DNA of 48,398 nucleotides from positions 1 through 48,398 of the IMG/VR virus record IMGVR_UViG_3300021375_000044. One strand, 5' to 3'. Below are positions 2,349 through 33,808 of this stretch, one piece after another. Under the pieces are notes generated by a model, which saw only the letters and a program-made list of their open reading frames with translations, ran no database searches and was not told where the DNA came from. The translations under genes were made by a program, and so were the position numbers. How positions within the stretch are numbered: position 1 is the first letter of the stretch; the number at the start of each line of letters is the position of its first letter. This stretch comes from a virus.

Positions 2349-2761
2349 GATTAGCATTAGCTCTATGTGTCGTAGCTAGTTCAGCATTAGCTGAGAGTAA
2401 CAACCTAGCTCTAACACTACCTAACCCACCAATGAACTATCAATCAGATAGATTTAGGGCAGGTAACTTAGACTGTAGTAATGCTGTAGGTGGTGGTGTA
2501 AACTTAGAGTTTGGTGTTACAGGTGTAGTCAATAATGTAGGTGGTACATTTAATCCATCAAGTTTTTCACACCAGAGTAAAGATGTAGGATTGTATGCCC
2601 GTGTTGTTATACCTCTTGATAAACCTAAGTCTCGTATTAATTGTGACGACTTATATCAGGTAGAGTTAGCCCAACGTAGACTAGAGATACAACAACTACG
2701 TAATGAGCTAGAAGCATTGAAGAACCTGCAACAGTCAGGTGGTATGGACTTTGAGAACTAA
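2345..2761 (+). CDS. Exported protein with beta domain and C-terminal coiled coil
   Basis: A 138-residue protein overlapping the preceding stop by 4 bases. MRLALALCVVASSALA is a signal peptide. The mature part has a Gly/Val-rich region with alternating hydrophobics (VNLEFGVTGVVNNVG, VGLYARVVIPL), two Cys (NLDCSN, RINCDD) and a C-terminal heptad region (LAQRRLEIQQLRNELEAL). It may be a periplasmic or outer-membrane-associated multimer. I recall similar proteins in marine podoviruses and myoviruses without known function. Spacing places it in one operon with the exported cluster. Confidence 0.8.
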   Translation: MRLALALCVVASSALAESNNLALTLPNPPMNYQSDRFRAGNLDCSNAVGGGVNLEFGVTGVVNNVGGTFNPSSFSHQSKDVGLYARVVIPLDKPKSRINCDDLYQVELAQRRLEIQQLRNELEALKNLQQSGGMDFEN

Positions 2762-3261
2762 TGGTAGATTTAACTAACGTTGAAAGCCTAGCTGACAGAG
2801 AAGTAAAAGCTGGTGGTGTAAAACTAACAGCAGGTTCAGTACTAGCAATCATTGCTTTCTTATCTACAGTAGTTGGTGGTTTGTACGGTGGCTTCACTTT
2901 ATATCAAAAGATAGAAGAAGTTGCAGGGTTAGACTTAACAGCATATCAACAACAGATGGATGTCATGGATGCTAAGGTATCAGGTATATCTGAGAAGGTT
3001 GAAGAGAGTGTAGAGTACACTAGAGATATTAAGAATGGTCTAAAGGATGATCTGTTACGAATAGAACAACAGACAGATCGAGTAGAAGATATGGTACGTG
3101 ATAATGAAGACAAGGTACGTTCCATGATAGACGATGCTGAAGTAAGGTTCGAGAATCAACGAGAACGTGTAAGAGTATCACAGTCTTCAGCAATGAAAGA
3201 ACTAGAAGATAGACTCAATGCTAAACTACAAAGAGCCTTAGATAACCCTTTAGCTGACTGA
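2761..3261 (+). CDS. Membrane-anchored long coiled-coil protein
   Basis: A 166-residue product whose ATG overlaps the preceding TAA. One transmembrane helix lies at about residues 25-48 (GSVLAIIAFLSTVVGGLYGG). The remaining 115 residues are a highly charged coiled coil (IEEVAG to the C-terminus). No catalytic motif is visible. The architecture fits a scaffold or spanin-like rod from the inner membrane, or a partner of the preceding exported proteins. It lacks the lipoprotein partner expected of a two-component spanin, so I leave it unnamed. Confidence 0.8.
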   Translation: MVDLTNVESLADREVKAGGVKLTAGSVLAIIAFLSTVVGGLYGGFTLYQKIEEVAGLDLTAYQQQMDVMDAKVSGISEKVEESVEYTRDIKNGLKDDLLRIEQQTDRVEDMVRDNEDKVRSMIDDAEVRFENQRERVRVSQSSAMKELEDRLNAKLQRALDNPLAD

Positions 3262-3287
3262 ATTAGCTTGACTTTTTAGTCGTTTTG

Positions 3288-3297
3288 AGTTTAACTA
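3288..3297 (+). repeat. AGTTTAACTA motif ahead of the acyltransferase gene
   Basis: The 10-mer AGTTTAACTA occurs just upstream of the ATG at 3303. Related copies lie in the divergent control region (32520-32529 and 32630-32639 as TAGTTAAACT, 32575-32584 as AGTTTAACTA). Being short and AT-rich, chance recurrence is possible. A shared regulator or promoter element is the alternative. Confidence 0.35.
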
Positions 3298-3302
3298 TAG
3301 TA

Positions 3303-3719
3303 ATGGAAATAGATAATAATAAAGCTTTAGCAGATGGGCTTAAGTTATTTAGACAAAGTAAATGGCACAGAGTATATAATGTAGATGATATCTACCGATA
3401 CTTAGTAGCTCCAATTAAATATAATCGTATTCGTATATACTATCAAGCTGATAAACCCATAGGATTAATAACATGGTGTTGGTTAGATAAAGAATCAGGT
3501 AAAGACTTCTTGAATAACGAGTACTATATTACAGAACAAGATTACGTAGCAGACAATAAAGAAGAGCTTTGGGGTATAGAGTTTATAGCACCTTACGGTC
3601 ATACAAGACAAGTCATGACTATGTTACGTAAAGAGTACCACAATACATACCCAAGAAAAGAAAAGATCAACTGGCGTAGACTGCATGATCCAGCCACCAG
3701 ACATATCAAGAAAGTTTAA
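3303..3719 (+). CDS. HlyC-like (RTX toxin-activating) lysine acyltransferase
   Basis: A 138-residue protein from ATG 3303 (an upstream TTG is in frame but less likely). It aligns by eye with HlyC: SKWHRVY matches the SPLHRNW region with catalytic His, KPIGLITWCWL matches YPVAYCSWANL, EQDYVADN matches EDWTSGD with catalytic Asp, and FIAPYGH matches WIAPFGD. His22 and Asp80 correspond to HlyC His23 and Asp92. Enzymes of this family move a fatty acyl chain from acyl-ACP to internal lysines of a protein, making it membrane-active. No RTX toxin is encoded here; the next genes encode large virion proteins, which are candidate substrates. Length is somewhat short for the family (about 170). Confidence 0.75.
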   Translation: MEIDNNKALADGLKLFRQSKWHRVYNVDDIYRYLVAPIKYNRIRIYYQADKPIGLITWCWLDKESGKDFLNNEYYITEQDYVADNKEELWGIEFIAPYGHTRQVMTMLRKEYHNTYPRKEKINWRRLHDPATRHIKKV

Positions 3720-5829: not shown

Positions 5830-6768
5830 ATGGCATATGGTGGTAAGAATACTCGTAGTTCAATAGCAGATGAGATAGCGGCTGAAATAGAATCAGACAT
5901 GACATCTTCTGTATCAGCTACTAAAGGTAGAGGTTTCTCTTTAGGTCAAAGAATTACTGCTGACACACAGGCTGAAGTGAATAAGCTAAAGTCAGACGTA
6001 GACAAAGGATCTAAAGCAGGTGTTATAAGAAGTAGGAAAGACAAAGAGGATGACTCTTCTAGTCTAGCATCTGAGCTATTTGGTTTTGCTAAGAGTTGGA
6101 TATCTGAGTTAGGTAGCGACTCTAAAGAGAACACAGTGTCTACTGTAGGTAAAGCTTCTGGTATTATTCCTGATGAGACTAAGGTATCTTACAATAAAGA
6201 GACAGACGTAAACCCTAAAGTTGTAAGTGGTGAGTTAGAAGAAGAGTCATCTGCTAACTCTTTCTTTATTAGACCTGCATCCACAAAAGACTTTAGTAAA
6301 CAAGTAGCAGGGTTAGTTAAAGCATCAGGTGATGACGAGTTTCCTGAAGCTGTAGAGATGTTTGCTGAGAAGTTTGATATAACGCCTAACGAAGTGTACG
6401 CAGTTATCAATGGCGAGAATAAAGACTGGGCTTACAATAAGACAAACAAAGGTGGCTACAAAGGATTGTTTCAAATAGGTAAGACAGCCGCAGAAGAAGC
6501 AGGTATAGACTATGGATCTATAGCTAACAAATCCCCTACAGAACAACTTGCTTTGTATGATACGTACTTGACTAGATGGAACTACGATAGTAGTATTCCT
6601 TTAGGTTTGTATCAAGCCGCACCCGGCTTAGCATCTAACTTAAAAGATCAAAGTGATGATACAATAATCTATGCTAAGGGATCTCCTGCATGGAAGAAGA
6701 ACAAAGGGTGGCGTAGCGCAGATAATGGAGCTATCACCAAAGGTAGCATAATTAGCTACTACCAATAA
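5830..6768 (+). CDS. Internal virion protein with lytic transglycosylase domain
   Basis: A 312-residue protein. Residues 1-150 are polar and low-complexity. Residues about 170-312 carry a soluble lytic transglycosylase-like fold: VYAVINGENKDW with the likely catalytic Glu196, then GGYKGLFQIG, the usual second motif, then a Tyr/Leu-rich helix. Such domains locally open peptidoglycan during DNA ejection, as in the T7 internal core protein gp16. It follows the repeat-rich virion protein and precedes other putative ejection proteins. A lysis role is less likely because a GH108 endolysin sits elsewhere, next to a holin. Confidence 0.8.
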   Translation: MAYGGKNTRSSIADEIAAEIESDMTSSVSATKGRGFSLGQRITADTQAEVNKLKSDVDKGSKAGVIRSRKDKEDDSSSLASELFGFAKSWISELGSDSKENTVSTVGKASGIIPDETKVSYNKETDVNPKVVSGELEEESSANSFFIRPASTKDFSKQVAGLVKASGDDEFPEAVEMFAEKFDITPNEVYAVINGENKDWAYNKTNKGGYKGLFQIGKTAAEEAGIDYGSIANKSPTEQLALYDTYLTRWNYDSSIPLGLYQAAPGLASNLKDQSDDTIIYAKGSPAWKKNKGWRSADNGAITKGSIISYYQ

Positions 6769-6789
6769 TTCAAAAAGGTATATAATATA

Positions 6790-7368
6790 ATGGCACTATT
6801 AGCACCAATTCCCGGTCAATCTTTAACTGATGAACCTAACAACTTTGCGTGGGAGAGGCCTCCTGAGATAACAGATCCAGATGAGGCTGTAGTGTTTCAC
6901 TTGGATAGACTGTCAGAGAAACCTATAGTAGATTCAGTTCTACACTTATTACAGATGGGCTTCCCTGTAGATGTACTAACTCGTAGTATTCTTACTGGTG
7001 CAGTAGGTAGCGGTATGCATAGTATTGATGTTAGCTTACTTATATCTCCTGTTATAGAAGAAGAGATAGCTTACATGGGTACTACTGCAGGTGTTAAGTT
7101 TAAGAATACCTTTGGTAACGATGAGACAGACGATGAGATACAAGAGAAGAAACTCAAAGATGTCATTATGGTTAGGTTAGAAGAAGAGCTAGGTAAGGGT
7201 GACGAAAGTTTTATTCGTGAGACTACAGAGGCCTTAGGTTCATCTCAAGAGTCAGCCTTAGAGACTATGCAAGAGGACACTACTCCTGAGCAAGAAGAAC
7301 AACAACAAGAAATAATGGATGATAAGCCTATTGATAGAGGCCAAGGTCTAATGAGCAGAGGTGTATGA
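6790..7368 (+). CDS. Conserved marine-phage virion protein, function unknown
   Basis: A 192-residue protein starting MALLAPIPGQSLTDEPNN. I recall the opening IPGQSLT and the internal LHSIDVSLL-type motif (here GSGMHSIDVSLLISPVI) from a protein family spread through marine podo- and myoviruses. The middle is helical and the last 50 residues are acidic and Gln-rich. It ends with MSRGV and is separated from the next start by one base. Likely a structural or assembly protein by position. Confidence 0.8.
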   Translation: MALLAPIPGQSLTDEPNNFAWERPPEITDPDEAVVFHLDRLSEKPIVDSVLHLLQMGFPVDVLTRSILTGAVGSGMHSIDVSLLISPVIEEEIAYMGTTAGVKFKNTFGNDETDDEIQEKKLKDVIMVRLEEELGKGDESFIRETTEALGSSQESALETMQEDTTPEQEEQQQEIMDDKPIDRGQGLMSRGV

Positions 7369-7369
7369 T

Positions 7370-8905
7370 ATGAGTTTTGCAACAGGGTTTTTTAGTACAG
7401 CGGCTGATAGAGTTACAGCACGTAAAGAATACATAAGAGATAAAAGAGCTAAAGATCGTGACTACCTCATGACTTACGGTACTCAGGCTGTTAAGAAGAC
7501 AGAAGAAGAAGCCAACAAAGCTATTACTATAGGTAAGCTTTTAGAAGGCAGAGGTATGACTCAAGAGAATATAAACTTTGTAGTAGATACATCAGGGCCT
7601 CAAGGTTTAGCTATCTTGTACAACACTATAAAAGACTTCAAGCCTAACGAGTTAAGTACGAAACAACTTAATGAGTACGTAAAAATGGCAGAAGACTATA
7701 GACCTAGCGGTACTACATACGATGACATGATTAGGAAGTCCTTCGGTCTGTATAAGAATGGTGTGACAGACAACCCAGAGAAGAACGAAGAGAGAGGCAT
7801 ATGGTCTTTCTTAGGTCTAGATGCAAATGCGGCAGACTCATCTATGACAGACTCTTACATAGGCGGTTACTCAGGGTACGACTTAAAGCGTATCATGTCA
7901 ACGTCTGCGCCTTCCTTGAAAGGCCCTCTACCTGTAGATAGAAGCTTGTTGCCTAAGGTATATAGCCCTACTGAAAACAAAGAGATGTTTAATTATATGG
8001 AAGATCAAATATTAAACATAGCACGTAAAGCTTCTACTGTTAGTGGGGATGAGTATGCAAAACTACCGGATGAAGATAAGGAATTTATTGCTAAGATAAA
8101 GTCATTAATAAAGGTTGAGGATACTAAGGGGCTACTTAGGTTATTACCTGACACAGCACAGGCCGTACTGGATTATGAAAAAATGTTCCCCGGTGGGTTA
8201 ACTAATAACTCATTCTGGACTACAAAGTATATGGACTTTAGTTTTGGTGATGATGTAAAGCCTATGGTTACAGGAGAAGATACATCCCTACAACCTAAAA
8301 TACGCCCTACTAATCTAATGAAAGGCCTTAGCTTAGAGGATCAATACAGTGCATTAACAAGTGGAGAGGAGGATGCCACCCCTTTCTCATTACTACCTGA
8401 ATTTGAAAACGCAGAAGAAGCCCAGAAAAGTAAAGACTTAAAAGCCGGTGATTATGTTATCATAGGAGGACAACTAACTACCGTAGGTCTTTCTTCTGAT
8501 AAGGAAACTGATACGATAACTAGTGTAGCAATAGCACCAGTGTCTGACTCTGAACTATCAAAGACTTTAGAGACTATCATGAAGAAGTGGGATGAAGAAA
8601 ATCCTGAACCTTCAGGCAGAGCAAAGGTAGGACATAACCGAAAGAGAGAGCAGTATTACATAGATCAAAGAAAGCTATTACTAGAAGGACAAGCTCAAGC
8701 GGCTGATGTATCAGAGGCAACAGGTTCTATAGTCGATACAGATCAAGAGGCGTTTGATAAAGAGATACAAAAACAGGTTGCCGAGAGACTTCTATTAAAA
8801 CCAGACACAGACCCTGACGACATAGCAACGGTAATAGCACATAGAGTCAGAAGGACTAATCCAAAATGGAAAGATCTAAAGCCTAGTAAAATAGAGAAAG
8901 ATTAA
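7370..8905 (+). CDS. Putative internal virion protein, 511 residues
   Basis: The ATG at 7370 is preferred to the GTG at 7361 because GAGG lies 8 bases upstream and overlap with the previous gene is avoided. The N-terminus (MSFATGFFSTAADRVTARKEYIRDKRAK) is a basic helix; the rest is mixed charged helix without enzyme motifs. Residues about 360-395 (KAGDYVIIGGQLTTVG and following) look like a small beta unit. Located between virion genes, it is probably part of the internal core or the tail. Confidence 0.75.
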   Translation: MSFATGFFSTAADRVTARKEYIRDKRAKDRDYLMTYGTQAVKKTEEEANKAITIGKLLEGRGMTQENINFVVDTSGPQGLAILYNTIKDFKPNELSTKQLNEYVKMAEDYRPSGTTYDDMIRKSFGLYKNGVTDNPEKNEERGIWSFLGLDANAADSSMTDSYIGGYSGYDLKRIMSTSAPSLKGPLPVDRSLLPKVYSPTENKEMFNYMEDQILNIARKASTVSGDEYAKLPDEDKEFIAKIKSLIKVEDTKGLLRLLPDTAQAVLDYEKMFPGGLTNNSFWTTKYMDFSFGDDVKPMVTGEDTSLQPKIRPTNLMKGLSLEDQYSALTSGEEDATPFSLLPEFENAEEAQKSKDLKAGDYVIIGGQLTTVGLSSDKETDTITSVAIAPVSDSELSKTLETIMKKWDEENPEPSGRAKVGHNRKREQYYIDQRKLLLEGQAQAADVSEATGSIVDTDQEAFDKEIQKQVAERLLLKPDTDPDDIATVIAHRVRRTNPKWKDLKPSKIEKD

Positions 8906-25416: not shown

Positions 25417-25659
25417 TCAATACTCCTCTTGTACTAGGTCATCTAATTCTACGTCATTCTCACAGCTACCGAAGTCTAGCTTGGGTGCAGTATAAAACAT
25501 TATGCCTCCATCAGGCCTCTCAACTGGGTTGCCCTCGTCATCGTGTACTGTGAACACAACGTCCCACAATCGTATGTCTGTAAAGCCTTCCGGTATGCTA
25601 GGCTCATACCATACGAACTTACCGTTCTCATCTAAGTCAGGTACTCTGTCACCACTCAT
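25417..25659 (-). CDS. Hypothetical acidic early protein
   Basis: An 80-residue acidic protein (MSGDRVPDLDENGKFVWYEP start, VELDDLVQEEY end). The beta-like centre IRLWDVVFTVHDDEG is distinctive. Highly acidic small early proteins in phages are often inhibitors of host enzymes or DNA mimics, but nothing here shows that. It overlaps the Mom-like gene by 4 bases. Confidence 0.75.
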   Translation of the reverse strand: MSGDRVPDLDENGKFVWYEPSIPEGFTDIRLWDVVFTVHDDEGNPVERPDGGIMFYTAPKLDFGSCENDVELDDLVQEEY

Positions 25660-26288
25660 TGTATAATCTCCTTCTTTGGGTATGCTTCAGTGCCATAACG
25701 TAGGCACTTGGTTAATAATCTTTTGTCTTTCTTGTTGCCATGCATGTACACATAGCGATGCTTAGCTGATCTGTAGACACGCTTACTCCTGTCACCTGCA
25801 TGGTGTCTAGGATGTTTGCCATTCACTGTAGCTATGTCAGTGCGAGGCTTGGTTGCACCAGTGTATAACCAATTGGTTGCTTGGTATACGTAGCCTACAT
25901 GATCGTGTGCTGTATCAGCATAGCTTACTAATACCTTAGGCTTGGGTAGTAATGCAATAGATCTAGCTACAAGTAAGCTTGCCTCGTTAGGCCTGTTGTT
26001 TACTAGCACTACCCTGTTAAGCTCTAATACTTTAGACTTGTGTTCCTCACCACACACACCCTTGCACAACCAAGGTGAAGCAGGTGAGCCGAAGGTACAT
26101 ATACCTTGTAGTCCTTCCATACCTCTATACAAACCGAAGGCATACGATACGGAAGGCATACGTCTAGCGTAGTGTACGTTGAGTATGAGATCCTTTGTGT
26201 CTTCGTAGGCTATAGGTATCACGAAATAGTTGTGGCTGTAGTGCATGTTATCTGGGCCAACTCCATGTAACTTAATCAAGTTGCTCAT
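25656..26288 (-). CDS. Mom-like adenine modification protein
   Basis: A 210-residue protein matching the Mom family pattern as I know it: LILNVHYARRMP (HY motif), YAFGLYRGMEGLQGI, TFGSPAS, LELNRVVLVNN, PNEASLLVARSI, then VLVSYADTAHDHVGYVYQAT followed by NWLYTG. The Lys/Arg-rich C-terminus (KHRYVYMHGNKKDKRLL) is also usual. Mu Mom is a GNAT-fold enzyme that converts adenines to a methylcarbamoyl form and blocks many restriction enzymes. The expected role is protection of phage DNA. It lies in the early operon beside small unknown genes. Confidence 0.75.
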   Translation of the reverse strand: MSNLIKLHGVGPDNMHYSHNYFVIPIAYEDTKDLILNVHYARRMPSVSYAFGLYRGMEGLQGICTFGSPASPWLCKGVCGEEHKSKVLELNRVVLVNNRPNEASLLVARSIALLPKPKVLVSYADTAHDHVGYVYQATNWLYTGATKPRTDIATVNGKHPRHHAGDRSKRVYRSAKHRYVYMHGNKKDKRLLTKCLRYGTEAYPKKEIIQ

Positions 26289-26998: not shown

Positions 26999-27247
26999 TT
27001 AGTCCTCCATTCCACTTACTACTACGTAGATAACATCCTTGTATAACTCAGGTGACAGATCTAACTGCCGTAAATTATACAACGTATACAATAGCTTATC
27101 AGTAAGTGTTAAGATCTTATGATACATAACTATGATAGCTTTACCAAAGTCCCTGTTGTACGTGTCCTCTAAGTAGAAGATCTTCTCGTCTAACGCTTCG
27201 TTGAGATAGTTTACCATCACTTCATTTGTTGGTGTTATCATTTCCAT
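26999..27247 (-). CDS. Hypothetical helical early protein
   Basis: An 82-residue protein, mainly two helices (EVMVNYLNEALDEKIFYLED, AIIVMYHKILTLTDKLLYTL). SD-like GGAAATG context and a one-base overlap with the upstream gene. No family recognised. Confidence 0.7.
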   Translation of the reverse strand: MEMITPTNEVMVNYLNEALDEKIFYLEDTYNRDFGKAIIVMYHKILTLTDKLLYTLYNLRQLDLSPELYKDVIYVVVSGMED

Positions 27248-27429
27248 TAGTCATTCTCCTTTATATAACAATGCTTTAACTCGTTTGTATCTAAAGCACC
27301 TGTAAAACCATTGCTCTCATAGGTAATGACTATTACATCACTATCCCAATGTACCTTGTACCCATCATTAGTCCAACGCACATTCTTACCTTTAGCCAAT
27401 GCTTTAGTAAGTTCTCTTAACAACATCAT
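27247..27429 (-). CDS. Hypothetical 60-residue protein
   Basis: Opens MMLLRELTKALAKGKNVRWT and continues NDGYKVHWDSDVIVITYESN. A helix followed by a beta meander. GGAGA lies ahead of the tandem ATG. Short proteins of this type are frequent in marine phage early regions; role unknown. Confidence 0.7.
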   Translation of the reverse strand: MMLLRELTKALAKGKNVRWTNDGYKVHWDSDVIVITYESNGFTGALDTNELKHCYIKEND

Positions 27430-27437
27430 TCATTCTC

Positions 27438-27581
27438 CTAGTCTCTATTACCGATTATTGGCGAGTAGCCATGTTCAACATATTTGTCAGATAAGTCTGA
27501 TGCTTCTTGGTATGTTAACCAATCGTCATTTACTTGCTTGCCATCTACCCAAACACTATATGCTTTTCTTGTATCACTCAT
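27438..27581 (-). CDS. Hypothetical 47-residue protein
   Basis: Starts MSDTRKAYSVWVDGKQVNDD and ends PIIGNRD. The central helix EASDLSDKYVEHGYSP follows a beta hairpin, a layout seen in many phage micro-proteins. ATG overlaps the upstream TGA and GGAG lies before it. Confidence 0.65.
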   Translation of the reverse strand: MSDTRKAYSVWVDGKQVNDDWLTYQEASDLSDKYVEHGYSPIIGNRD

Positions 27582-27808
27582 TGTTCATTCTCCTCTTCAA
27601 ATTTAGCTAACGCTTTACGGCATACGATGTCGCCTATCCACGCAGTCTTCTGTGTATTGTCATAGTCAAAGGCTATGCCTTGCATCTCGCCTGTCTTGAG
27701 GTCTAGCTCTATCTCTTCTACGTCTATCTCCCACTCGTCATCACCTAAGTATAGATATACTCGTGTGTCTATATGACTAGCGTATTTAGTTGTTGCTATG
27801 TGTGTCAT
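27578..27808 (-). CDS. Hypothetical acidic early protein
   Basis: A 76-residue beta-rich acidic product (RVYLYLGDDEWEIDVEEIEL). It starts inside the 3' end of the upstream gene (23-base overlap) with GGAGA ahead of it. Function unknown. Confidence 0.7.
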   Translation of the reverse strand: MTHIATTKYASHIDTRVYLYLGDDEWEIDVEEIELDLKTGEMQGIAFDYDNTQKTAWIGDIVCRKALAKFEEENEQ

Positions 27809-28031
27809 CAGTAATCTCCTTTGCTTCCTTGAGTATGTACAGATTGCTTTGTGCCTCTACTATATCTGCCTTAGTCCATAGCCTGTCATCAGCACACTCC
27901 CTGTCATCTGATGATGGCCTGAGAGGATGCGTTACATATACTTCATAGCCCTCTCTCAAACCTTGGGTTGCTATGTACATGTCATACGTTTGTATCTCTT
28001 GTGTACCGTCATCTTTATCTACGATCTTCAT
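27786..28031 (-). CDS. Hypothetical early protein
   Basis: An 81-residue acidic product, MKIVDKDDGTQEIQTYDMYI onward. The DRECADDRLWTKADIVEAQ segment is distinctive, but I do not know the family. It begins one base after the next upstream gene ends. Confidence 0.7.
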   Translation of the reverse strand: MKIVDKDDGTQEIQTYDMYIATQGLREGYEVYVTHPLRPSSDDRECADDRLWTKADIVEAQSNLYILKEAKEITDDTHSNN

Positions 28032-28032
28032 A

Positions 28033-28647
28033 TTATATCTCCATGATTGCTGTTACGTGATAGGCTGACACCGCATCACCTGTAGGTAGGGAAGCATTCA
28101 TGCCACCCTTCTCTGCTACAAAGTTACACCACGTATCCCACCAGTGCTTAGCACCTGACACCTGACACAACTCTATGTACTTACGGATCTTCTTGAGCCT
28201 AAGCTCAGGCTTGATTGTCTTGCTAACTTTTAGTGCAGTCTCAGACATGCCAAGCATACGCACGTTGTGCCTGTCGAGACACGCCACGTTGAAGCCACAC
28301 ATCTGAGCTATGAACCCTGCCTTGACCATGCCTATGGATGGTATCCGCATGAATAGATCTACTACAGCCTGACCTGCATCCACACTGTCCACACCCATAG
28401 TCTCACGGATGTTTACCATCAGGGCATGTAGCTCCTGCTTATGTTGTTGGGCATACAGTATACCCTTAGCTTTGGCACTCGATACCCACTTAGAGTGGAT
28501 GCCTTCCTGCTTTATAGATGCACGTTGAGTATGCACTCTGGATAGGGGCATGTTGATAGTGCATAGAGTAAACTCTATTGTGTCATACAAACCATCTGGT
28601 GATGATATGCTATGATCGGTTATGATTGTGCAGTCACGTTGATACAT
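28033..28647 (-). CDS. HhH-GPD-like (DNA glycosylase-fold) protein
   Basis: The ATG at 28647 is preferred: GGAG lies 9 bases upstream, whereas the ATG at 28662 has no SD. The 204-residue product contains DLFMRIPSIGMVKAGFIAQM, a helix-hairpin-helix, followed by GFNVACLDRHNVRMLGM. The Asp of CLDRHNV sits where endonuclease III-type glycosylases carry the catalytic Asp (VDTHVxR). I recall related unannotated proteins in marine phages. A base-excision or modified-base-sensing role is plausible but unproven. The first palindromic site stands immediately upstream. Confidence 0.65.
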   Translation of the reverse strand: MYQRDCTIITDHSISSPDGLYDTIEFTLCTINMPLSRVHTQRASIKQEGIHSKWVSSAKAKGILYAQQHKQELHALMVNIRETMGVDSVDAGQAVVDLFMRIPSIGMVKAGFIAQMCGFNVACLDRHNVRMLGMSETALKVSKTIKPELRLKKIRKYIELCQVSGAKHWWDTWCNFVAEKGGMNASLPTGDAVSAYHVTAIMEI

Positions 28648-28668
28648 TGTGATAGTCTCCATTGTTGT

Positions 28669-28690
28669 GTCGTCGGACGATCCGACAACG
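28669..28690. promoter_or_regulatory. Palindromic early-region site 1
   Basis: The core GTCGGACGATCCGAC is at 28672-28686: 6-bp arms GTCGGA/TCCGAC around CGA. Sites 1-4 are identical over 22 bp. On the minus strand it is preceded by TATAAGTAATC, overlapping the stop of the upstream gene, and followed 8 bases later by the GGAG of the HhH gene. It could be an operator at a start site or an RNA hairpin in the leader (9 pairs, one G-U). Confidence 0.8.
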
Positions 28691-28691
28691 A

Positions 28692-28868
28692 TTACTTATA
28701 TGTAAATATAAATTCTTTGAGGGTAGCATCATCAGCGTTGCGATAATATTCCCACATGTCATCAGCTACTAAGCGTCTGAGTACAGAATGATCTTGCTTG
28801 TCTACCCAGTCTATGATGGCTTGCTCAATAAGATCTTCTTTCTTCTTTTTAATACCTATAGTACCCAT
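28692..28868 (-). CDS. Hypothetical 58-residue protein
   Basis: Starts MGTIGIKKKKEDLIEQAIID and ends KEFIFTYK. A basic N-terminus, then amphipathic helices with WVDKQDHSVLRRLVADDMW. The TAA stop abuts palindromic site 1, so the gene closes the upstream transcription segment. Family unknown. Confidence 0.7.
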   Translation of the reverse strand: MGTIGIKKKKEDLIEQAIIDWVDKQDHSVLRRLVADDMWEYYRNADDATLKEFIFTYK

Positions 28869-28881
28869 TTGTCAATCCCTC

Positions 28882-29085
28882 CTACTGCCAATGGTGTGTC
28901 CAGTGATAGTCAAGTATAGCTTCCATAGCTTTATCCCAACCTGTTACGTCATGCATAGTGAAGCAGTCACAGTTGTACTTCTCCCTAAACCTATGGTCAT
29001 TCTCGAATACATTGAAGGTAGCCTTACCATTCCATGTGTATGCATGACCGCCTATTAATATCTCTACGTCTAATGGTTTAATCAT
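28882..29085 (-). CDS. Hypothetical 67-residue protein
   Basis: ATG 29085 is chosen (MIKPLDVEILIGGHAYTWNG) because it overlaps the upstream stop as ATGA; longer upstream extensions overlap the zinc-ribbon gene throughout. One Cys pair (YNCDCFTMH). The C-terminus is His/Trp-rich (DYHWTHHWQ). No family recognised. Confidence 0.7.
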   Translation of the reverse strand: MIKPLDVEILIGGHAYTWNGKATFNVFENDHRFREKYNCDCFTMHDVTGWDKAMEAILDYHWTHHWQ

Positions 29086-29282
29086 TTCTCTTCTCCTATT
29101 TCTTTTAAGTAATGGTACAAGAAGTACTCCGGTATCTCTACCGTTGTACTCCTGTAGTCGCACTCCAAACATCTGCGGCTTCGTCGCCTCGTTAGAATGC
29201 CATTCCTAGTTAAGTGTTCTCGTGTCTCATACACCTTCATCTTCTTGATACAGGTAGGGCATACTTCTACTACGTGTTCCAT
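29082..29282 (-). CDS. Zinc-ribbon protein with Arg patch
   Basis: A 66-residue protein with CPTC (8-11) and CLEC (38-41), and RRRSRR directly before the second pair. The layout is like the zinc ribbon of NrdR or other nucleic-acid-binding ribbons. It could bind DNA or RNA. The lack of an ATP-cone domain excludes NrdR itself. Confidence 0.75.
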   Translation of the reverse strand: MEHVVEVCPTCIKKMKVYETREHLTRNGILTRRRSRRCLECDYRSTTVEIPEYFLYHYLKEIGEEK

Positions 29283-29283
29283 G

Positions 29284-29628
29284 CTAGAAGTTACCGAACT
29301 CTATGTTTCTAGCTACAACCCTACCATCATTCTTGATGTGACCATTGCTTATGTCTATGATGTAGTGTCCGTTGTCCCACTCTTCTTTGTACTTCTCCAT
29401 AGCAGGACGTACACCTACAGACAGACCACCTTCCACCTTGCTACAGATGTGAGCTATCAGTCTAGCTGTAGCATAGCTAACATCAGACTTACGCATTTTA
29501 GATGATGCACCTCTTACGAGTTGTGTCACAGTGTTGGGGCTACCATTCCAGTGTAGGTATATGTAGCACTCTGATTCCTTGCCTGTGTAGTTGTCGCTTA
29601 TTACTTCAAGTGTTGCTCTATTTCCCAT
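29284..29628 (-). CDS. Conserved marine-phage protein, unknown
   Basis: A 114-residue protein. MGNRATLEVISD, then CYIYLHWNGSPNTV, resembles a family I have seen in marine phages opening MGNR...YLHWNGSP. Central helix SYATARLIAHICSKVEGG; beta-rich end. Function unknown. Confidence 0.75.
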   Translation of the reverse strand: MGNRATLEVISDNYTGKESECYIYLHWNGSPNTVTQLVRGASSKMRKSDVSYATARLIAHICSKVEGGLSVGVRPAMEKYKEEWDNGHYIIDISNGHIKNDGRVVARNIEFGNF

Positions 29629-29891
29629 TAGTTATCTCCTCTATATCCTGCAGGTAAAGTTGGATCTAAGTGATCCTTGATGATAGTCTCCATGTCCTCA
29701 ATAGCTTTGTCTATCTCGGTACGCTTGTACTTCACGCCACTAATCTGTGAAGCTTTAGCCATTAGTTTAGTCTTAGTCAGATGACGTGCCGGCTTGAGGC
29801 CAATACGTATCATCTTGAGTGCCGCTTTGAGGAACACTGCTTGCACCTCATCACGTCCGGGATCTTCTACTGTAAAGTGTGTGTCTTTCAT
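29628..29891 (-). CDS. Hypothetical basic early protein
   Basis: An 87-residue basic helical product (FLKAALKMIRIGLKPARHLT, KTKLMAKASQISGVKYKRTE). Possibly nucleic-acid binding. GGAGAATAAC precedes the ATG. No family recognised. Confidence 0.7.
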   Translation of the reverse strand: MKDTHFTVEDPGRDEVQAVFLKAALKMIRIGLKPARHLTKTKLMAKASQISGVKYKRTEIDKAIEDMETIIKDHLDPTLPAGYRGDN

Positions 29892-29894
29892 TTG

Positions 29895-30221
29895 TTATTC
29901 TCCTTTACATTTACTACTAAATGAAACAGAGGTAATCTTTTCTAGAACTACAGTATACATCCCAAGGTAATCACCATCTTTATCTTTATTGCCGTTTTTA
30001 TCTTCTAGCCTGTCACAATCTACATAGTTATAATCTTCATATGCTTCATAATCAGGGGTACTACCTAAGAATTCTTCTAGTTCTGCTTTGGCAAGGTCAA
30101 TAGTTTCAAAGTGTCCTAATGTGAAACCGTGAGTGTTATAATAATGTTCGTCATAACCTTCAGTATCATCACTCCATTTATATATTGACCCATCTTCTAC
30201 AGTTAATTTATAATTAGTCAT
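29895..30221 (-). CDS. Hypothetical acidic early protein
   Basis: Start set at ATG 30221 (MTNYKLTVEDGSIYKWSDD), which has AGGAG upstream; the longer frame would begin inside palindromic site 2. The 108-residue product is Tyr/Asp-rich with a duplicated-looking acidic helix (AKAELEEFLGSTPDYEAYED). First gene after site 2. Function unknown. Confidence 0.7.
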   Translation of the reverse strand: MTNYKLTVEDGSIYKWSDDTEGYDEHYYNTHGFTLGHFETIDLAKAELEEFLGSTPDYEAYEDYNYVDCDRLEDKNGNKDKDGDYLGMYTVVLEKITSVSFSSKCKGE

Positions 30222-30249
30222 TTTGTATTCTCCTATTGTTTGTGTCACC

Positions 30250-30271
30250 GTCGTCGGACGATCCGACAACG
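30250..30271. promoter_or_regulatory. Palindromic early-region site 2
   Basis: Core GTCGGACGATCCGAC at 30253-30267, identical to site 1 across 22 bp. On the minus strand it is preceded by TATAACTAATC, nearly the same as TATAAGTAATC at site 1, and followed 16 bases later by GGAG of the gene starting at 30221. It is intergenic. Confidence 0.8.
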
Positions 30272-30281
30272 ATTAGTTATA

Positions 30282-30596
30282 CTAAACCCATTCAGTTAGT
30301 TCTACCCCATCAGGTACAGTAATGCCGTACTGTTCTTCGAACAAAGGGTCAGCTTGCTTGAGTGTCATATTTCTTAACACCTCACGTATATAGCTATCAC
30401 CCATGTCAAAAGATCCATACGTATGGTCAGACTTAACAGCCACAAACCATCTAGCGAATCGGTTCTTCTCTTCATTAGCCGGTGTTTGGTACGTCTTAAG
30501 CAATCGTACCTCAGTGTCACCGAATGCACCGAAGCCCTGCCATATAGCATAAGGGTTCTCTTTAGTGCGTGATTTTCCTAGTAAATTCTTAGCCAT
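30282..30596 (-). CDS. Hypothetical early protein
   Basis: A 104-residue product (MAKNLLGKSRTKENPYAIWQ; IWQGFGAFGDTEVRLLKTYQ). Looks like a small mixed alpha/beta protein with several aromatic residues. It overlaps the upstream gene by 8 bases and ends just before site 2. Confidence 0.75.
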   Translation of the reverse strand: MAKNLLGKSRTKENPYAIWQGFGAFGDTEVRLLKTYQTPANEEKNRFARWFVAVKSDHTYGSFDMGDSYIREVLRNMTLKQADPLFEEQYGITVPDGVELTEWV

Positions 30597-30771
30597 TCTG
30601 CATCTCCTTTAAGTGTTCCATAGTTATTCTACAAGCCAAGTTCCAAGCCATCATAGAATATGTGTAAGCGACAATTCTTTCTTCCGTATTCAGCCTATCT
30701 ATGATAGCTATAAAATCTTCCATGCTATCTGGTGTGTGTACCAATCCAGTTGGTTCAATAGGGTTATTCAT
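30589..30771 (-). CDS. Hypothetical 60-residue protein
   Basis: MNNPIEPTGLVHTPDSMEDF onward, mostly helical with WNLACRITMEHLKEM near the end. ATG overlaps the upstream stop by 8 bases; GGAG lies ahead. First complete gene after site 3. Unknown function. Confidence 0.7.
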   Translation of the reverse strand: MNNPIEPTGLVHTPDSMEDFIAIIDRLNTEERIVAYTYSMMAWNLACRITMEHLKEMQNG

Positions 30772-30967
30772 TATTAGTCTCCGTTGTTAGTGTCGTCGGA
30801 CGATCCGACAACGATTTAATATTTGTCTTACTATCAAGGCCGATCCCATCTCGTTTGTCAATGGCTCTGGTTCTGTTCATCGACAACATCTGCCTATGCC
30901 ATGTGCTACGCCATCGCTTGTCGCCACGTCTGGCTAGTCGGTCACGTTTTGACACCCCATACGTCAT
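30764..30967 (-). CDS. Small Arg-rich protein containing site 3
   Basis: A 67-residue very basic product (DRLARRGDKRWRSTWHRQML). AAGGA lies before its ATG and ATGA coupling joins it to the upstream gene. Palindromic site 3 lies in its last codons, where it encodes LSDRPTT. That makes this the one site inside a gene. It may be nucleic-acid binding; family unknown. Confidence 0.65.
   Translation of the reverse strand: MTYGVSKRDRLARRGDKRWRSTWHRQMLSMNRTRAIDKRDGIGLDSKTNIKSLSDRPTTLTTETNNE
30792..30813. promoter_or_regulatory. Palindromic early-region site 3
   Basis: Core GTCGGACGATCCGAC at 30795-30809, 22-bp match to sites 1, 2 and 4. On the minus strand it is preceded by AATATTAAATC and followed 9 bases later by GGAG for the gene at 30771. 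It lies within the 3' end of the Arg-rich gene, so the conservation is not explained by that protein. Confidence 0.8.
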
Positions 30968-31266
30968 GATAGATCCTTATATTTAATGAAGCGAGGGAAG
31001 GCTTCTTTGTAAACGCCATGCTCTTTGTAATACTCTTCATTGTCTTTCCAATGCTTGTAAGCACCTGCCTCTATGTCAAATGTCATCACATCACGTAGGC
31101 CATACTTCACACCTAAGAAGAAAGCATCAAAGCATTTATAATTATAGTGATACTTGTACTTTTCAAAGCTTTCATCTGGCTCTCCAGTAATCCTATAAAA
31201 TCCTGCTTTGATGTGATCAAAGATAGACCCCATGTCTTGAACAAATTGTTCATCTCCTATTCGCAT
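30964..31266 (-). CDS. Hypothetical early protein
   Basis: A 100-residue product, MRIGDEQFVQDMGSIFDHIK, then FEKYKYHYNYKCFDAFFLGV, rich in Phe, Tyr and Lys. AGGAG lies before the ATG. First gene after site 4 and the terminator upstream of it. No family recognised. Confidence 0.75.
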   Translation of the reverse strand: MRIGDEQFVQDMGSIFDHIKAGFYRITGEPDESFEKYKYHYNYKCFDAFFLGVKYGLRDVMTFDIEAGAYKHWKDNEEYYKEHGVYKEAFPRFIKYKDLS

Positions 31267-31295
31267 TTTAATCTCCTATTTAACTACGTTAAGTC

Positions 31296-31317
31296 GTCGT
31301 CGGACGATCCGACAACG
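31296..31317. promoter_or_regulatory. Palindromic early-region site 4
   Basis: Core GTCGGACGATCCGAC at 31299-31313, 22-bp identical to the other three. It stands between the terminator after the candidate regulator gene and the next gene (ATG 31266), with AGGAG 19 bases downstream on the minus strand. Upstream context AAAACGTTG differs slightly from sites 1-3. Confidence 0.8.
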
Positions 31318-31323
31318 TTTTAC

Positions 31324-31340
31324 TGTTTGTATTACAAACA
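31324..31340. promoter_or_regulatory. Separate 17-bp palindrome
   Basis: TGTTTGTATTACAAACA has perfect 8-bp arms around one central base. It sits 7 bases from site 4, between that site and the terminator hairpin. Size and symmetry fit a repressor operator; no second copy was noticed. Confidence 0.5.
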
Positions 31341-31362
31341 AAAACAAGCCCCGTAGGGCTTG
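31338..31362 (-). terminator. Rho-independent terminator after the regulator-like gene
   Basis: On the minus strand CAAGCCC pairs with GGGCTTG around a 4-base loop and is followed by TTTTTGTTTG. It ends (or attenuates) the transcript of the gene at 31398-31991, so genes below need a new promoter or readthrough, consistent with a function for site 4. Confidence 0.7.
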
Positions 31363-31397
31363 CAATAAGATGTGAAGTAAGCTTCGAAGGGCTTAAG

Positions 31398-31991
31398 TTA
31401 TGATTTCTTGTAGAGCTTTGTAAGCTCTTTAGTGAAGGTAGCTTTGCTAAACCCTGCCTCGGTCATGATCTGATGTACTAGCTTTGCTAGGTCAAGTTCA
31501 GTCTTAGGTTTCGGTATAGCTTTGCTATTGTCTTGCTTCGGTTCAGCTTTAGCTGTTGAGGCTTTCTTTCCTTTGGAAACATTACCTGCTGAACCAACCT
31601 TAGTCTTGGGTTGGTCTGAAGCTTTGACCCTCTTTCTGATGGCTGATACTCCTAGAGTATCGAAGAGACCGTTCTTGTTTAACTTCTGGATCTTGATCCA
31701 GTTAGCGGCGATGAAGATCGTATCTGATCTGTCTTGCTTTGATATTCCAGCTAAAGCTGAAGAGGCTATAGCCTTACCGAAAGATATATTATCTTTATGC
31801 AAACTACGAACTTGTAACAGTATGTTACCCAATTCTCTGTAGTAGTCCAGTTGTTGCTCTTGCAACAAGTATAACTTGTCATAGATCTTTGCGCCATGAT
31901 CAAGAGCTTCAGTTATACTGAAGGTACTTTTACCCAGTTTCACTGTACCTGAAACTTCGATTTGTGCTTTTAACTTCGTTACATTAGTCAT
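31398..31991 (-). CDS. Candidate early regulator (DUF3102-like DNA-binding region)
   Basis: Start set at ATG 31991 (MTNVTKLKAQIEVSG); the longer frame adds a non-conserved hydrophobic stretch. In the 197-residue product, DYYRELGNILLQVRSLHK plus FGKAIASSALAGISKQDRSD and IFIAANWIKIQKL resemble DUF3102-type proteins (LGxxLLxVRxxH..F..WL...GIS..TA...). That fold is a ParB-type helix-turn-helix. A Lys/Ala-rich linker and a C-terminal helical domain (HQIMTEAGFSKATFTKEL) follow. As the first leftward gene with its own terminator, it may bind the palindromic sites; not demonstrated. Confidence 0.7.
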   Translation of the reverse strand: MTNVTKLKAQIEVSGTVKLGKSTFSITEALDHGAKIYDKLYLLQEQQLDYYRELGNILLQVRSLHKDNISFGKAIASSALAGISKQDRSDTIFIAANWIKIQKLNKNGLFDTLGVSAIRKRVKASDQPKTKVGSAGNVSKGKKASTAKAEPKQDNSKAIPKPKTELDLAKLVHQIMTEAGFSKATFTKELTKLYKKS

Positions 31992-32037
31992 ATCAATCTC
32001 CGATTGTAGTTGGCTTGATTGCCGATTTGATGAGACC

Positions 32038-32066
32038 AATAGGACAGATGCCAAACAAATTGTCAA
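32038..32066 (-). promoter_or_regulatory. Possible leftward early promoter
   Basis: On the minus strand a perfect TTGACA (32066-32061) is followed, 17 bases on, by CCTATT, a weak -10. It is 45 bases or so before the ATG at 31991. A competing candidate is a perfect TATAAT on the minus strand at 32251-32246, but without a good -35. Confidence 0.4.
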
Positions 32067-32105
32067 CAACTTTTGGTGTGCATTATGCGCAAGGAAAAGC
32101 GGAGA

Positions 32106-32127
32106 GTGGTCGGATCGTCCGACAACG
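32106..32127. promoter_or_regulatory. Palindromic site 5 (variant)
   Basis: Core GTCGGATCGTCCGAC at 32109-32123 has the same 6-bp arms as sites 1-4, but the central triplet is TCG instead of CGA while the right flank AACG is kept. It lies about 115 bases upstream of the candidate regulator gene. Confidence 0.7.
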
Positions 32128-32475
32128 GCCTGATTTTTGGGACTATGGGGTAGGCTATTTTGTCCCTCTAAAAGAGGGGTAGGGGTTTAGTGCATGAAGC
32201 TTTGCTTTTTGTGTCCTCCTGCCTAATGTCATGCATAATCTGGGCATTATAGGCATATCCGGATAGATAATCCGTATAAAAGTGTAACGTTTTCAAGGGC
32301 TTAAGCCTAGCAAGCACGCCTTATAGCACATATCATGCCTTATCATGCCTACCCCGGCGAGGGCCACCCCCCATCCACCCGTATACGTATATGTACTCCT
32401 ACACAGAAGTGGATTTTAGAATGGCAAAAGCTGTACACAAAGTGTTACAAACTGTAATATTTCGTGAAGAGGGGG

Positions 32476-32503
32476 TTGACATAGGCACAAAAATGGTTAT
32501 AAC
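32476..32503 (+). promoter_or_regulatory. Rightward sigma-70-like promoter
   Basis: TTGACA (32476-32481), 16-bp spacer, TATAAC (32498-32503). No gene starts within 350 bases, so it would give a long leader through the AT-rich repeats, or act in origin priming. Confidence 0.55.
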
Positions 32504-32519
32504 TGACCGCAGGGAAGCG

Positions 32520-32584
32520 TAGTTAAACTATAAGTTACAATATAAAGTTACAATAAAAAAATATCTTACTATAAAGTTTAACTA
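32520..32584. repeat. Inverted repeat TAGTTAAACT / AGTTTAACTA
   Basis: TAGTTAAACT at 32520-32529 and its exact complement AGTTTAACTA at 32575-32584 flank an AT-rich stretch with two copies of AGTTACAATA. A third copy, TAGTTAAACT at 32630-32639, touches the strong promoter at 32646. It could be a regulator site or origin repeats. Confidence 0.5.
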
Positions 32585-32645
32585 ACATTGTTGCATATTA
32601 GTTCTTGGACTTAGGAAAAGTGTCACGTATAGTTAAACTTAGGTG

Positions 32646-32674
32646 TTGACACCATATTTAGAGTAGTATATAAT
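32646..32674 (+). promoter_or_regulatory. Strong rightward consensus promoter
   Basis: Perfect TTGACA (32646-32651) and perfect TATAAT (32669-32674) separated by 17 bp. Expected transcription start about 32681, giving a leader of about 190 bases before the ATG at 32872. It likely drives the lysis and downstream late genes using host RNA polymerase. An AGTTAAACT motif lies just upstream, suggesting control. Confidence 0.75.
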
Positions 32675-32871
32675 AATTTGTACAAGGTTAAGACATTAAA
32701 CGACTTAACTGTTAAAGAAGTTATAACTCTAAGTGTAACTAAAGTACCGTAGACTACTTGATAGACTTGTATTATTGTTAAGTCTCCTCATTTGTCTCCT
32801 CCCTCTTGATAGTAGTATAAACTTTCATTTAGTTTGCGGTACAATTTTACTTTAAATATGTATTGACAATA

Positions 32872-33129
32872 ATGACAAAACGAATAAAACTATATGCAAG
32901 TGAAAATGTACTTGAAGAGTTCTACGATGCGTTAGCTAACAAGGACTCTCGTGCATTATATCGTGTTCATATCCCCAAGAGTGACGTATTTTATGTCCGT
33001 ACTGCCATCGAGAGTGACACCGGAGTAAGGTATACTTTAGACAGAGTAGAACGAGCTATGTATCTAGAGGGTATGTTAAACAAAAGAGACGTACTAGATC
33101 CAAACAGGAAGAGAGACTGGGAAGAATGA
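32872..33129 (+). CDS. Hypothetical first late-operon protein
   Basis: An 85-residue protein from ATG 32872 (MTKRIKLYASENVLEEFYDA); a TTG nine bases earlier is also in frame. Lys/Asp/Arg-rich with RVERAMYLEGMLNKRD. SD is poor. Overlaps the EF-hand gene by 4 bases. No family recognised; regulatory role possible by position. Confidence 0.7.
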   Translation: MTKRIKLYASENVLEEFYDALANKDSRALYRVHIPKSDVFYVRTAIESDTGVRYTLDRVERAMYLEGMLNKRDVLDPNRKRDWEE

Positions 33130-33455
33130 CTAGTTTTGATGAAGTTGACGTAGACAAAAGCGGCACTATAGACAAATCTGAGTGGGAAGCTTTAGAACTA
33201 GAAGACAGACGTAGGCGATTAGACGATGAAGACAGCCAAAGAGACGCACAACGGCGTATGGCGTGGTTCTGCTTAGTTGGAATGTTAGCTTATCCTTTCT
33301 TAGTGTTACTTTGTAGCATTGTAGGAGCAGAACAAGCCGCAGACATTATAGGATCTATGGCATCTATCTACTTTTTATCTGTAGCTGGTATAGTTGGTGT
33401 ATTCTTTGGGGTAACTAACATGAGCAAGAAGGAAGTTAAGGGGAACAACGGATGA
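33126..33455 (+). CDS. Membrane protein with EF-hand motif in the lysis cassette
   Basis: A 109-residue protein. DVDKSGTIDKSE (residues 8-19) is a canonical EF-hand loop with Asp, Asp, Ser, Thr and Glu at positions 1, 3, 5, 7, 12 and the usual Gly6 and Ile8. A charged helix follows, then two transmembrane helices at about 47-68 and 75-98 (FCLVGMLAYPFLVLLCSIVG; YFLSVAGIVGVFFGVT). It precedes the holin-like gene and overlaps it by 4 bases. It may be a holin, antiholin or calcium-responsive lysis regulator; which one is unknown. Confidence 0.8.
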   Translation: MTSFDEVDVDKSGTIDKSEWEALELEDRRRRLDDEDSQRDAQRRMAWFCLVGMLAYPFLVLLCSIVGAEQAADIIGSMASIYFLSVAGIVGVFFGVTNMSKKEVKGNNG

Positions 33456-33808
33456 TGGGCTTAAACTTAATCGGTCAAGTAGCTAATCTTGCTGGTACAA
33501 TGATAGAAGGCAAGACTGCAGTTAAGAAAGCTGAAGCTGAAACTAAGATGAAGATAGCCACCGGTGAGATTGACTGGGATATAGCGGCTATGAAAGCTAC
33601 AGAGAACAGTTGGAAGGACGAATGGATAACTTTATTGTTTAGTATCCCGTTAATCCTAGCATTCTGTGGTGATTGGGGCAATCAGATCGTACAAGCAGGG
33701 TTTACTGCCCTAGAGATTATGCCAGATTGGTATCAATACTCTTTGGGTGGGATCGTTAGTGCCAGTATTGGTATGCGTGGTGTAAGTAAATACTTCGGGA
33801 AGAAATAA
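33452..33808 (+). CDS. Holin-like membrane protein
   Basis: A 118-residue protein. A charged amphipathic N-terminal half (EGKTAVKKAEAETKMKIATG) leads to NSWKDEWITLLFSIPLILAF, a transmembrane helix, then a second hydrophobic helix (YSLGGIVSASIGMRGV). This pattern matches phage holins of the GTA/DUF3154 type as I know them. Located directly before the endolysin, with a one-base overlap. Confidence 0.78.
   Translation: MMGLNLIGQVANLAGTMIEGKTAVKKAEAETKMKIATGEIDWDIAAMKATENSWKDEWITLLFSIPLILAFCGDWGNQIVQAGFTALEIMPDWYQYSLGGIVSASIGMRGVSKYFGKK

Follow-up and report, generated by a model that had tools for sequence, protein, structure and literature searches.

What do five near-identical palindromes do in the early region of a phage, and do they have a partner among the genes around them? 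The question is raised by the IMG/VR virus record IMGVR_UViG_3300021375_000044, whose 48.4 kb (48,398 nucleotides) form the window analyzed here and contain the replication and structural genes of HMO-2011-type phages. In its leftward early operon, between 28.7 and 32.1 kb, lie five GTCGGA-N3-TCCGAC palindromes, where about zero are expected by chance; the first gene of this operon, here called the head gene, encodes a protein of 197 aa. Our analyses favor a reading in which the palindromes are DNA operators bound by the head protein, and we place its probability at roughly 0.7. The first-pass annotation had left operators and RNA hairpins side by side as explanations. Of these, the operator branch is favored by the co-occurrence of gene and array, by a spacer change in a natural chimera and by the spacing of −35 elements, while the hairpin branch is disfavored by uncompensated changes in the palindrome halves. 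The head protein, which had been put forward for a binding assay, is favored as the candidate regulator because gene and lineage-specific array occur together. Direct binding, dimerization, repression rather than activation and any role in lysogeny are what we infer from these patterns. The features concerned are as follows.

32106–32127, unstranded: head site; its palindrome core runs opposite to that of the other four, and the start codon of the head gene follows after about 115 nt
32061–32066, minus strand: TTGACA (exact hexamer in the window sequence), proposed −35 element of the head (early operon) promoter
31398–31991, minus strand: head gene, which opens the leftward early operon; its 197-aa product is the proposed regulator that would bind the palindromes
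31296–31317, unstranded: first palindrome after the head gene, ending 19 nt before GGAG; the downstream gene differs between relatives by replacement
30856–30861, minus strand: TTGACA upstream of site 30792 (at −51 in the corresponding locus L129), proposed −35 element
30792–30813, unstranded: palindrome within the 3′ end of open reading frame (ORF) 30764–30967, ending 9 nt before GGAG
30250–30271, unstranded: palindrome ending 16 nt before GGAG; the downstream gene differs between relatives by replacement
28669–28690, unstranded: palindrome ending 8 nt before the GGAG of the 209-aa gene
28033–28662, minus strand: 209-aa gene with MYQRDC near its start, preceded by a palindrome

Palindrome arrays and the head gene

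The original description of the array is confirmed. The sites at 28669, 30250, 30792 and 31296 are identical over 22 bp (GTCGTCGGACGATCCGACAACG), they are followed on the transcribed strand by GGAG after 8, 16, 9 and 19 nt, respectively, and the site at 30792 does lie in the 3′ end of a gene. The site at 32106 differs from the other four as reported; however, what had been described as a turned central triplet is really an inverted core, i.e., an exact 15-bp copy on the other strand, in which the TTG flank keeps its orientation and one flank base also differs. At ≤3 mismatches, the 15-bp core gave 10 strand-matches in the window, which are the five places on both strands, compared with a mean of 0.22 and a maximum of 2 in 100 dinucleotide-preserving shuffles. 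Similarly, GTCGGANNNTCCGAC occurs at five places in the window and the reversed pattern at none.

The array goes with the head gene in relatives of the phage. First, a search of IMG/VR with head-protein profile A2, in which the palindrome was not used, returned 62 loci. In crops of 2.3 to 8 kb around the head gene, scanned with lineage consensus palindromes at ≤2 mismatches, at least two sites were present in 61 of the 62 loci and at least three in 53, while reversed sequences gave a background of 8 and 4 of 62, respectively. A de novo palindrome finder detected a family of at least three in 54/62 loci, including every one of the 41 with 4 kb or more of cropped sequence. At least four members were found in 37 of these 41 and in 1 of 129 control phage crops; families of at least three copies occurred in 10/129 controls. 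The controls were phage contigs fetched by pattern hits, from which known array contigs had been excluded beforehand, and only 30 of the 129 have a G+C content of ≤50%, with 2 of these 30 reaching at least three copies. Because the finder's largest family is not the lineage palindrome in seven loci, the 54/62 may include other palindromes, and the consensus count is the cleaner of the two; it recovers two to four lineage sites in all of these seven loci except L342.

Second, the form of the palindrome follows the lineage. GTCGGA-type arrays go with head proteins that are 38 to 100% identical, TGTCGAA-N2-TTCGACA arrays with loci L350–L373 and L378, and TGACGGAATTCAGTCA arrays with L374–L377. 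Among the 29 divergent loci (L350–L378), 20 match another protein of the window, mostly the terminase at ~67 to 75% identity, and are therefore relatives in the same phage group. Lack of conservation in close relatives had been set beforehand as the finding that would count against the palindromes; conservation is what we found. In six loci the head protein is 99 to 100% identical. Five of these keep the complete set of five palindromes; in the remaining one, the 5.5-kb contig L126, there are two. More distant relatives have TAGTGTCGGA-N3-TCCGACAGTA and similar forms. In nine whole records (G001–G009) chosen because the motif is present, GTCGGAN{3,4}TCCGAC occurs 5, 6, 4, 5, 5, 3, 3, 5 and 4 times. 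Among the matches listed, contigs with a single 15-mer were set aside as background, because a collection of this kind should contain any 15-mer many times.

Third, the association extends to cultured phages. Among 1,877 ORFs, profile A3 matched HMO-2011 gp74 (E 4e-6), CRP-1 gp01 (5e-8) and CRP-345 gp01 (7e-10) and no other ORF at E ≤1, and these three are remote homologues of the head protein (hhalign probability 97%, E 2e-10). HMO-2011 has five copies of TAGTCCG-N4-CGGACTA, with variants, and CRP-1 and CRP-345 have four copies each of YGTCCAA-N2-TTGGACR; arrays of four to five copies are present in 3/3 cultured phages with the gene. The gene was not found in the parts searched of CRP-207, CRP-603, CRP-2, HTVC033P, CRP-3, CRP-235, CRP-738 and CRP-212 (the first 9 kb of CRP-235, CRP-738 and CRP-212; the first 9 and last 8 kb of CRP-3), and in 8-kb stretches none of these eight has a palindrome family of more than two copies. 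The core itself, for which a search in HMO-2011-type genomes had been proposed, is kept in close relatives; HMO-2011, CRP-1 and CRP-345 carry their own palindromes.

Some arrays have features of their own. Loci L344, L345, L346 and L349 form one lineage with 10 to 11 palindromes, about twice the usual number, which reach 5 to 6 kb past the head gene. In CRP-1 (at 6867; integrase 6092–7129) and CRP-345 (at 7078; integrase 6219–7343), the integrase gene contains the lineage palindrome or a near copy of it, and in L284 one is present at 7380 within an integrase match at 6800–7705. G003 (L278) has four GTCGGACTAGTCCGAC copies at 364, 2171, 2477 and 3441; an ORF at 2747–3355 (minus strand, 202 aa) takes the head position at the first site, its homology to the head family being uncertain. 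In G025 (L322/L323), a phage contig that seems to be unrelated, GTCGGATNATCCGAC occurs five times, at 18773, 19702, 22156, 24515 and 28092; the first copy falls where a 271-aa ORF begins, immediately ahead of its likely start codon. This ORF had no match in the whole-record search with the narrow profile A1.

Half-sites, leaders and candidate promoters

A natural chimera suggests which parts of the head protein would see the site. The head proteins of L130 and L131 are 79% identical to that of the window, and the two loci have two and three sites, respectively; all five sites have a 4-nt spacer rather than the 3-nt spacer, with unchanged arms. The difference in the proteins is concentrated in the N-terminal part. 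Compared to the window, residues 85–197 are identical at 108/113 positions in L131 and 110/113 in L130, and residues 1–84 at 48/84 and 45/84. By segment, L131 has 12/25 identical residues in 1–25, 22/37 in 26–62, 14/22 in 63–84, 40/42 in 85–126, 34/34 in 127–160 and 34/37 in 161–197; the values for L130 are 9/25, 22/37, 14/22, 39/42, 34/34 and 37/37. The predicted structure of the head protein is mostly helical with a long helix at residues 26–62. On the simplest reading, the N-terminal part with this helix would set the distance between subunits and the 85–126 region would read the half-site. Because L130 and L131 may be one lineage, the spacer change may be a single event.

Do the palindromes act as DNA or as RNA? 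The two halves of distinct sites at ≤2 mismatches were compared in the two best sampled clades. The halves are unequal, which breaks the stem, in 24/63 sites of the GTCGGA clade and 36/68 of the TGTCGAA clade, and compensated changes that leave both halves alike account for 1/63 and 0/68. Identical halves are as frequent as under permutation or slightly less so (39 vs. 39.7 expected, n = 63; 32 vs. 36.5 expected, n = 68). Chance matches at this cut-off amount to ~4 of 83 and ~1 of 79 sites, counts that still include duplicates. Because the changes are independent and uncompensated, the halves behave like separate copies of a single half-site rather than like the paired strands of a stem; this favors DNA dyads over RNA hairpins.

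The idea that hairpins in 5′ leaders (nine pairs in the window) control translation, processing or stability of early mRNAs draws on the placement of the sites. In a survey of 32 representative loci with 147 sites, 144 of which have a later start codon, 76/144 end ≤40 nt from a start codon preceded by a Shine-Dalgarno sequence (SD), compared to 9.5% of random positions in the same regions. Moreover, the stem can form on the sense strand, and the leader from site to start is often kept where the next gene is not, with 97 to 100% identity at the first post-head site. However, besides the independent change of the halves with its one and zero compensated cases, many sites lie within coding sequence or >100 nt from a start codon, and no Rfam family reached its gathering score in 27000–33500. 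Altogether, we consider RNA hairpins improbable. Known RNAs and intrinsic terminators were also considered and rejected: the only Rfam match was below threshold, and no T run follows the window palindromes on either strand. The match in question, to Ocean-VII RNA, lies in the head gene (31614–31652, minus strand) and is probably due to chance (E 0.019, 20.2 bits vs. a gathering score of 53.5).

The positions of the sites relative to candidate promoters are consistent with operators. The head site lies ~125 to 150 bp upstream of the head gene in the GTCGGA clade and, in the other loci where it was found, ~160 to 520 bp upstream of the predicted start codon; an upstream head site was not found in L350, L351, L355 and L358. 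Of 13 distinct head sites, 11 have an exact TTGACA 50 to 75 nt after the site start and one more has it at 48 nt; the 13 include one site (L356) that is actually within its head gene. At near-start sites, TTGACA occurs 20 to 75 nt upstream in 18/72 distinct cases, and the bins from −75 to −25 contain 18 sense and 1 antisense occurrences. Matches to the −10 element are weak, with a mean best sigma-70 score of 8.08 of 12 near sites vs. 7.50 in controls. Taking the case at −51 with a 17-nt promoter spacer, transcription would start ~15 nt before the site, and in some loci the site would overlap the start point. Close to the head site is another conserved inverted repeat, GCATWATGC, surrounded by CTTTTCCTTGCGCATAATGCACACCAAAAG (window 32080–32090), which follows the head site in L129, L131, L326, L327 and L344 and precedes it in L330, L331 and L340; it could be a promoter element or the site of another factor.

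Sites also occur inside genes. The head genes of 18/30 representative loci contain 22 in-gene sites, one to three each, of which 21 lie at 67 to 84% of the protein length and one near residue 47; the head gene of the window has none. They encode clade-specific peptides (DGPSD; VE-S/T motifs), which is what conservation of the DNA rather than of the peptide would predict. At the far end of the array, a palindrome stands before the 209-aa gene at 28033–28662 in the window and before its counterparts in L217, L223, G001, G007 and G008, and these proteins are 71 to 77% identical.

At some sites, early genes are swapped behind leader units that stay conserved. We compared pairs among L129, L125, L130, L131 and L155, for which unrelated 200-mers have a mean identity of 0.55 and a maximum of 0.60. 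At the first post-head site, the following gene is unrelated in 9/10 pairs (0.53 to 0.61), while leaders are 97 to 100% and upstream flanks 71 to 100% identical; compared to L129, identities of the 120-nt upstream flank and the leader are 96% and 97% in L131 and 71% and 100% in L130. At the third site, the following gene is unrelated in 3/3 pairs with leaders 84 to 100% and the upstream flank 93% identical. Gene replacement was seen in 3/6 pairs at the second site and in 0/3 at the fourth. Kept flanks and leaders in front of unrelated genes at the first and third post-head sites would fit palindromes maintained mainly as recombination seams, i.e., as promoter-operator-SD cassettes for early-gene exchange. 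However, this would leave the co-occurrence with one gene, the in-gene sites and the concerted spacer difference unexplained, the fourth site has no replacement in any pair, and exchange may be a by-product of shared operators. We therefore hold seams as the main reason for conservation to be about as improbable as RNA hairpins.

A regulatory model and its alternatives

We suggest the following model for the operators. The head protein would bind the palindromes, probably as a dimer with one subunit per half-site (TGTCGGAC), such that residues 85–126 read the half-site and residues 1–84, including helix 26–62, set the spacing of the halves. One operator would lie upstream of the TTGACA promoter of the head gene itself and thereby allow autoregulation. 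Others sit at additional proposed early promoters or shortly past them, and immediately ahead of SD sequences. With head protein on these operators, both initiation and elongation would be blocked and the early region would be transcribed less. Coordinated control of early genes, which had been proposed from the start, can fairly be inferred.

The sign of the effect is less certain than the operator function, and we lean moderately toward repression. An activator, or a two-way switch between early and late expression, would use the same protein and the same sites. Such an arrangement is nested within the operator reading and would suit the head promoters, at which TTGACA follows the head site by 50 to 75 nt in 11/13 cases, as activators also sit upstream; a CATAAT element ~28 to 35 nt after the palindrome center in L129, L131, L326, L327 and L344 fits it as well. 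However, sites past the proposed start points, in the head gene and in other genes are better suited to a block of initiation or elongation, and we regard activation as unlikely.

Several observations weigh against operators bound by the head protein. The 62 loci are mutually related and not independent. The finder's largest family is not the lineage palindrome in L126, L342, L354, L357, L362, L363 and L367, and L342, with a 2.4-kb crop, has no site. Loose GTCGGA matches occur in two TGTCGAA loci (two in L359, one in L370), within the reversed-sequence background. An exact TTGACA at 18/72 near-start sites is a small share. The GTCGGA clade has a polarity, with the deviating seventh base in the upstream half in 24 sites (T,C) and in the downstream half in 8 (C,T), that a simple dyad does not need. 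The head genes of CRP-1 and CRP-345 escaped the narrower profile A1 and were found with the broader A3; over seven whole cultured records, A1 detected HMO-2011 only. The fold of the head protein was not recognized in Foldseek (PDB, BFVD) and VIA-align comparisons. Finally, G002 (55.6 kb) has six sites, and the head gene was undetected in it, also at the place where relatives have the gene (L276, 16240–17180). Repressor-less relatives of temperate phages can arise by deletion, and G002 may be a natural repressor-less form, perhaps of this origin.

The head protein had no credible match in Pfam, NCBIfam, PHROGs or PDB sequences. Foldseek returned nothing at E ≤0.001 with a first model of the protein against PDB and a second against BFVD; the best BFVD rows were S4S2E1 (205 aa) and A0A2D0YMK0 of Vibrio phage JSF9 (E 5-6e-3), and a DUF3102 protein was at rank 41. 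Neither the head protein nor, in addition, two divergent relatives matched cultured phages in tblastn, and CRP-345 gp01 as the query matched itself and CRP-1 only. No relatives were found in 84,980 bacterial and archaeal genomes with one peptide pattern, which matched nine stretches, none of them confirmed. A host regulon was considered and rejected: the longer motif form AGTGTCGGANNNTCCGACAGTA occurs in three bacterial contigs (two Clostridioides, one Cyclobacteriaceae), which are unlikely hosts.

Dispersed palindromes beside the gene for a mostly helical protein also bring to mind a centromere-like or nucleoprotein system of the ParB/KorB kind, in which the sites would seed a complex that maintains a prophage or plasmid, packs the genome or silences genes at long range. 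In VIA-align, DNA-binding domains of KorB and P1 ParB were at ranks 2, 4 and 8 with the second head model, among unrelated rows. However, their Z scores were only 3.6 to 4.2 (8qa8 4.2, 1r71 3.9, 2ntz 3.6), and unrelated rows tie with them. Moreover, the CTP-binding motif G[AE]RRxR was present in 0/52 head proteins, no ParB-type Pfam domain matched, and ParB/KorB identity has no support from sequence: profile comparison with the R751 ParB-family protein, which we take to be KorB, was no better than with 28 other R751 proteins. We treat the relation as a lead only and think a system of this kind very improbable.

Known systems and the phage group

By analogy, the head system would work most like the stoperators of cluster A mycobacteriophages, with an unrecognized protein family and symmetric sites; this is our best reading of the comparison. 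As described in the consulted parts of the cluster A reports, phages such as L5 and TipsytheTRex have many copies of one site in promoters and short intergenic gaps, the motif and the repressor are lineage specific and diverge together, and the stoperators are asymmetric 13-bp sites, each occupied by a repressor monomer and in most cases pointing in the direction of transcription (PMC6550527, PMC9283540). The head arrays likewise have multiple copies in promoter regions, as judged by −35 matches only, and in short gaps. By contrast, their sites are inverted repeats with cores and flanks in both orientations, and they usually number 3 to 6 copies (10 to 11 in one lineage) within the early region searched. 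The cluster A repressor has an HTH and a Stoperator domain, and its binding halts transcription at both initiation and elongation. The head protein is unmatched in Pfam, NCBIfam and PDB sequences and has no clear fold match.

In the cluster K phages, start-associated sequences (SAS) are repeats just before the starts of non-structural genes; the SAS is 13 bp, asymmetric and contains the SD (PMC3203893). About half are accompanied by inverted repeats (ESAS) that lie farther upstream than the SD, with 17-bp halves, a spacer of variable length and a consensus that varies between the phages of the cluster (PMC3203893); no binder is known for these elements. The head-array sites share the placement before start codons. 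However, GGAG in the window lies 8 to 19 nt beyond the palindrome, and in some relatives within a few nt, but outside any common repeat; the half-sites are ~6 to 10 bp with a spacer of 2, 3 or 4 nt by lineage, where the finder groups palindromes by spacer and would split a variable one; and the arrays are tied to one gene. Thus, the head system fails defining features of both cluster A stoperators and SAS/ESAS.

KorB of plasmid RK2 is described, in the part of the source used here, as acting from dispersed OB operators near and far from promoters with long-range repression (PMC11790492). The head system resembles it, at the sequence level, in dispersed palindromes as putative operators for one protein, together with the weak fold resemblance; it differs in that the head protein lacks the CTP-binding motif, a ParB-type Pfam match and detectable sequence similarity. 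The PeSL cassettes of T4-type phages consist of a promoter and a terminator hairpin. In both cases, regulatory units recur in front of early genes and gene replacement occurs at the same places; however, the window palindromes are not followed by a T run, and sites of the head arrays also lie within genes.

HMO-2011-type phages are dominant and widely distributed in the ocean, as stated in the sections of the survey available to us (PMC9038755). An integrase is common in the group, and CRP-3 integrates into its host, again according to the portions consulted (PMC9038755, PMC6918029). In the open-licence literature covered, including the available parts of the group's two main papers, we found no repressor, operator or DNA repeat described for these phages. 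Tentatively, and at somewhat less than even odds, we propose a new family of regulators, present in a large part of the HMO-2011-type phages and their relatives, that governs the entire early region from a few palindromic operators. It would have separable parts for spacing and half-site reading, one-step shifts in specificity that all operators follow, in-gene operators in many members and exchange seams, and it would be the missing immunity repressor in integrase-bearing members. The head protein and its predicted sites make a candidate master regulator that can be tested in cultured HMO-2011, CRP-1 and CRP-345. In this way, early control and a possible lysis/lysogeny decision of abundant ocean phages become testable, and the L130/L131 chimera is a ready case for a regulator and its operator set changing specificity together.

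The DNA polymerase of the window shares 67% identity with its counterpart in Roseobacter phage CRP-207 and 55% with the one in HMO-2011; compared to CRP-207, the terminase is 79% and the coat protein 59% identical. The window also has matching helicase, primase, integrase, terminase and coat genes. Its early region gave no megablast match to cultured phages. This region also encodes a Mom-like DNA modification protein at 25656–26288 on the minus strand (PHROG 1384, E 2e-50).

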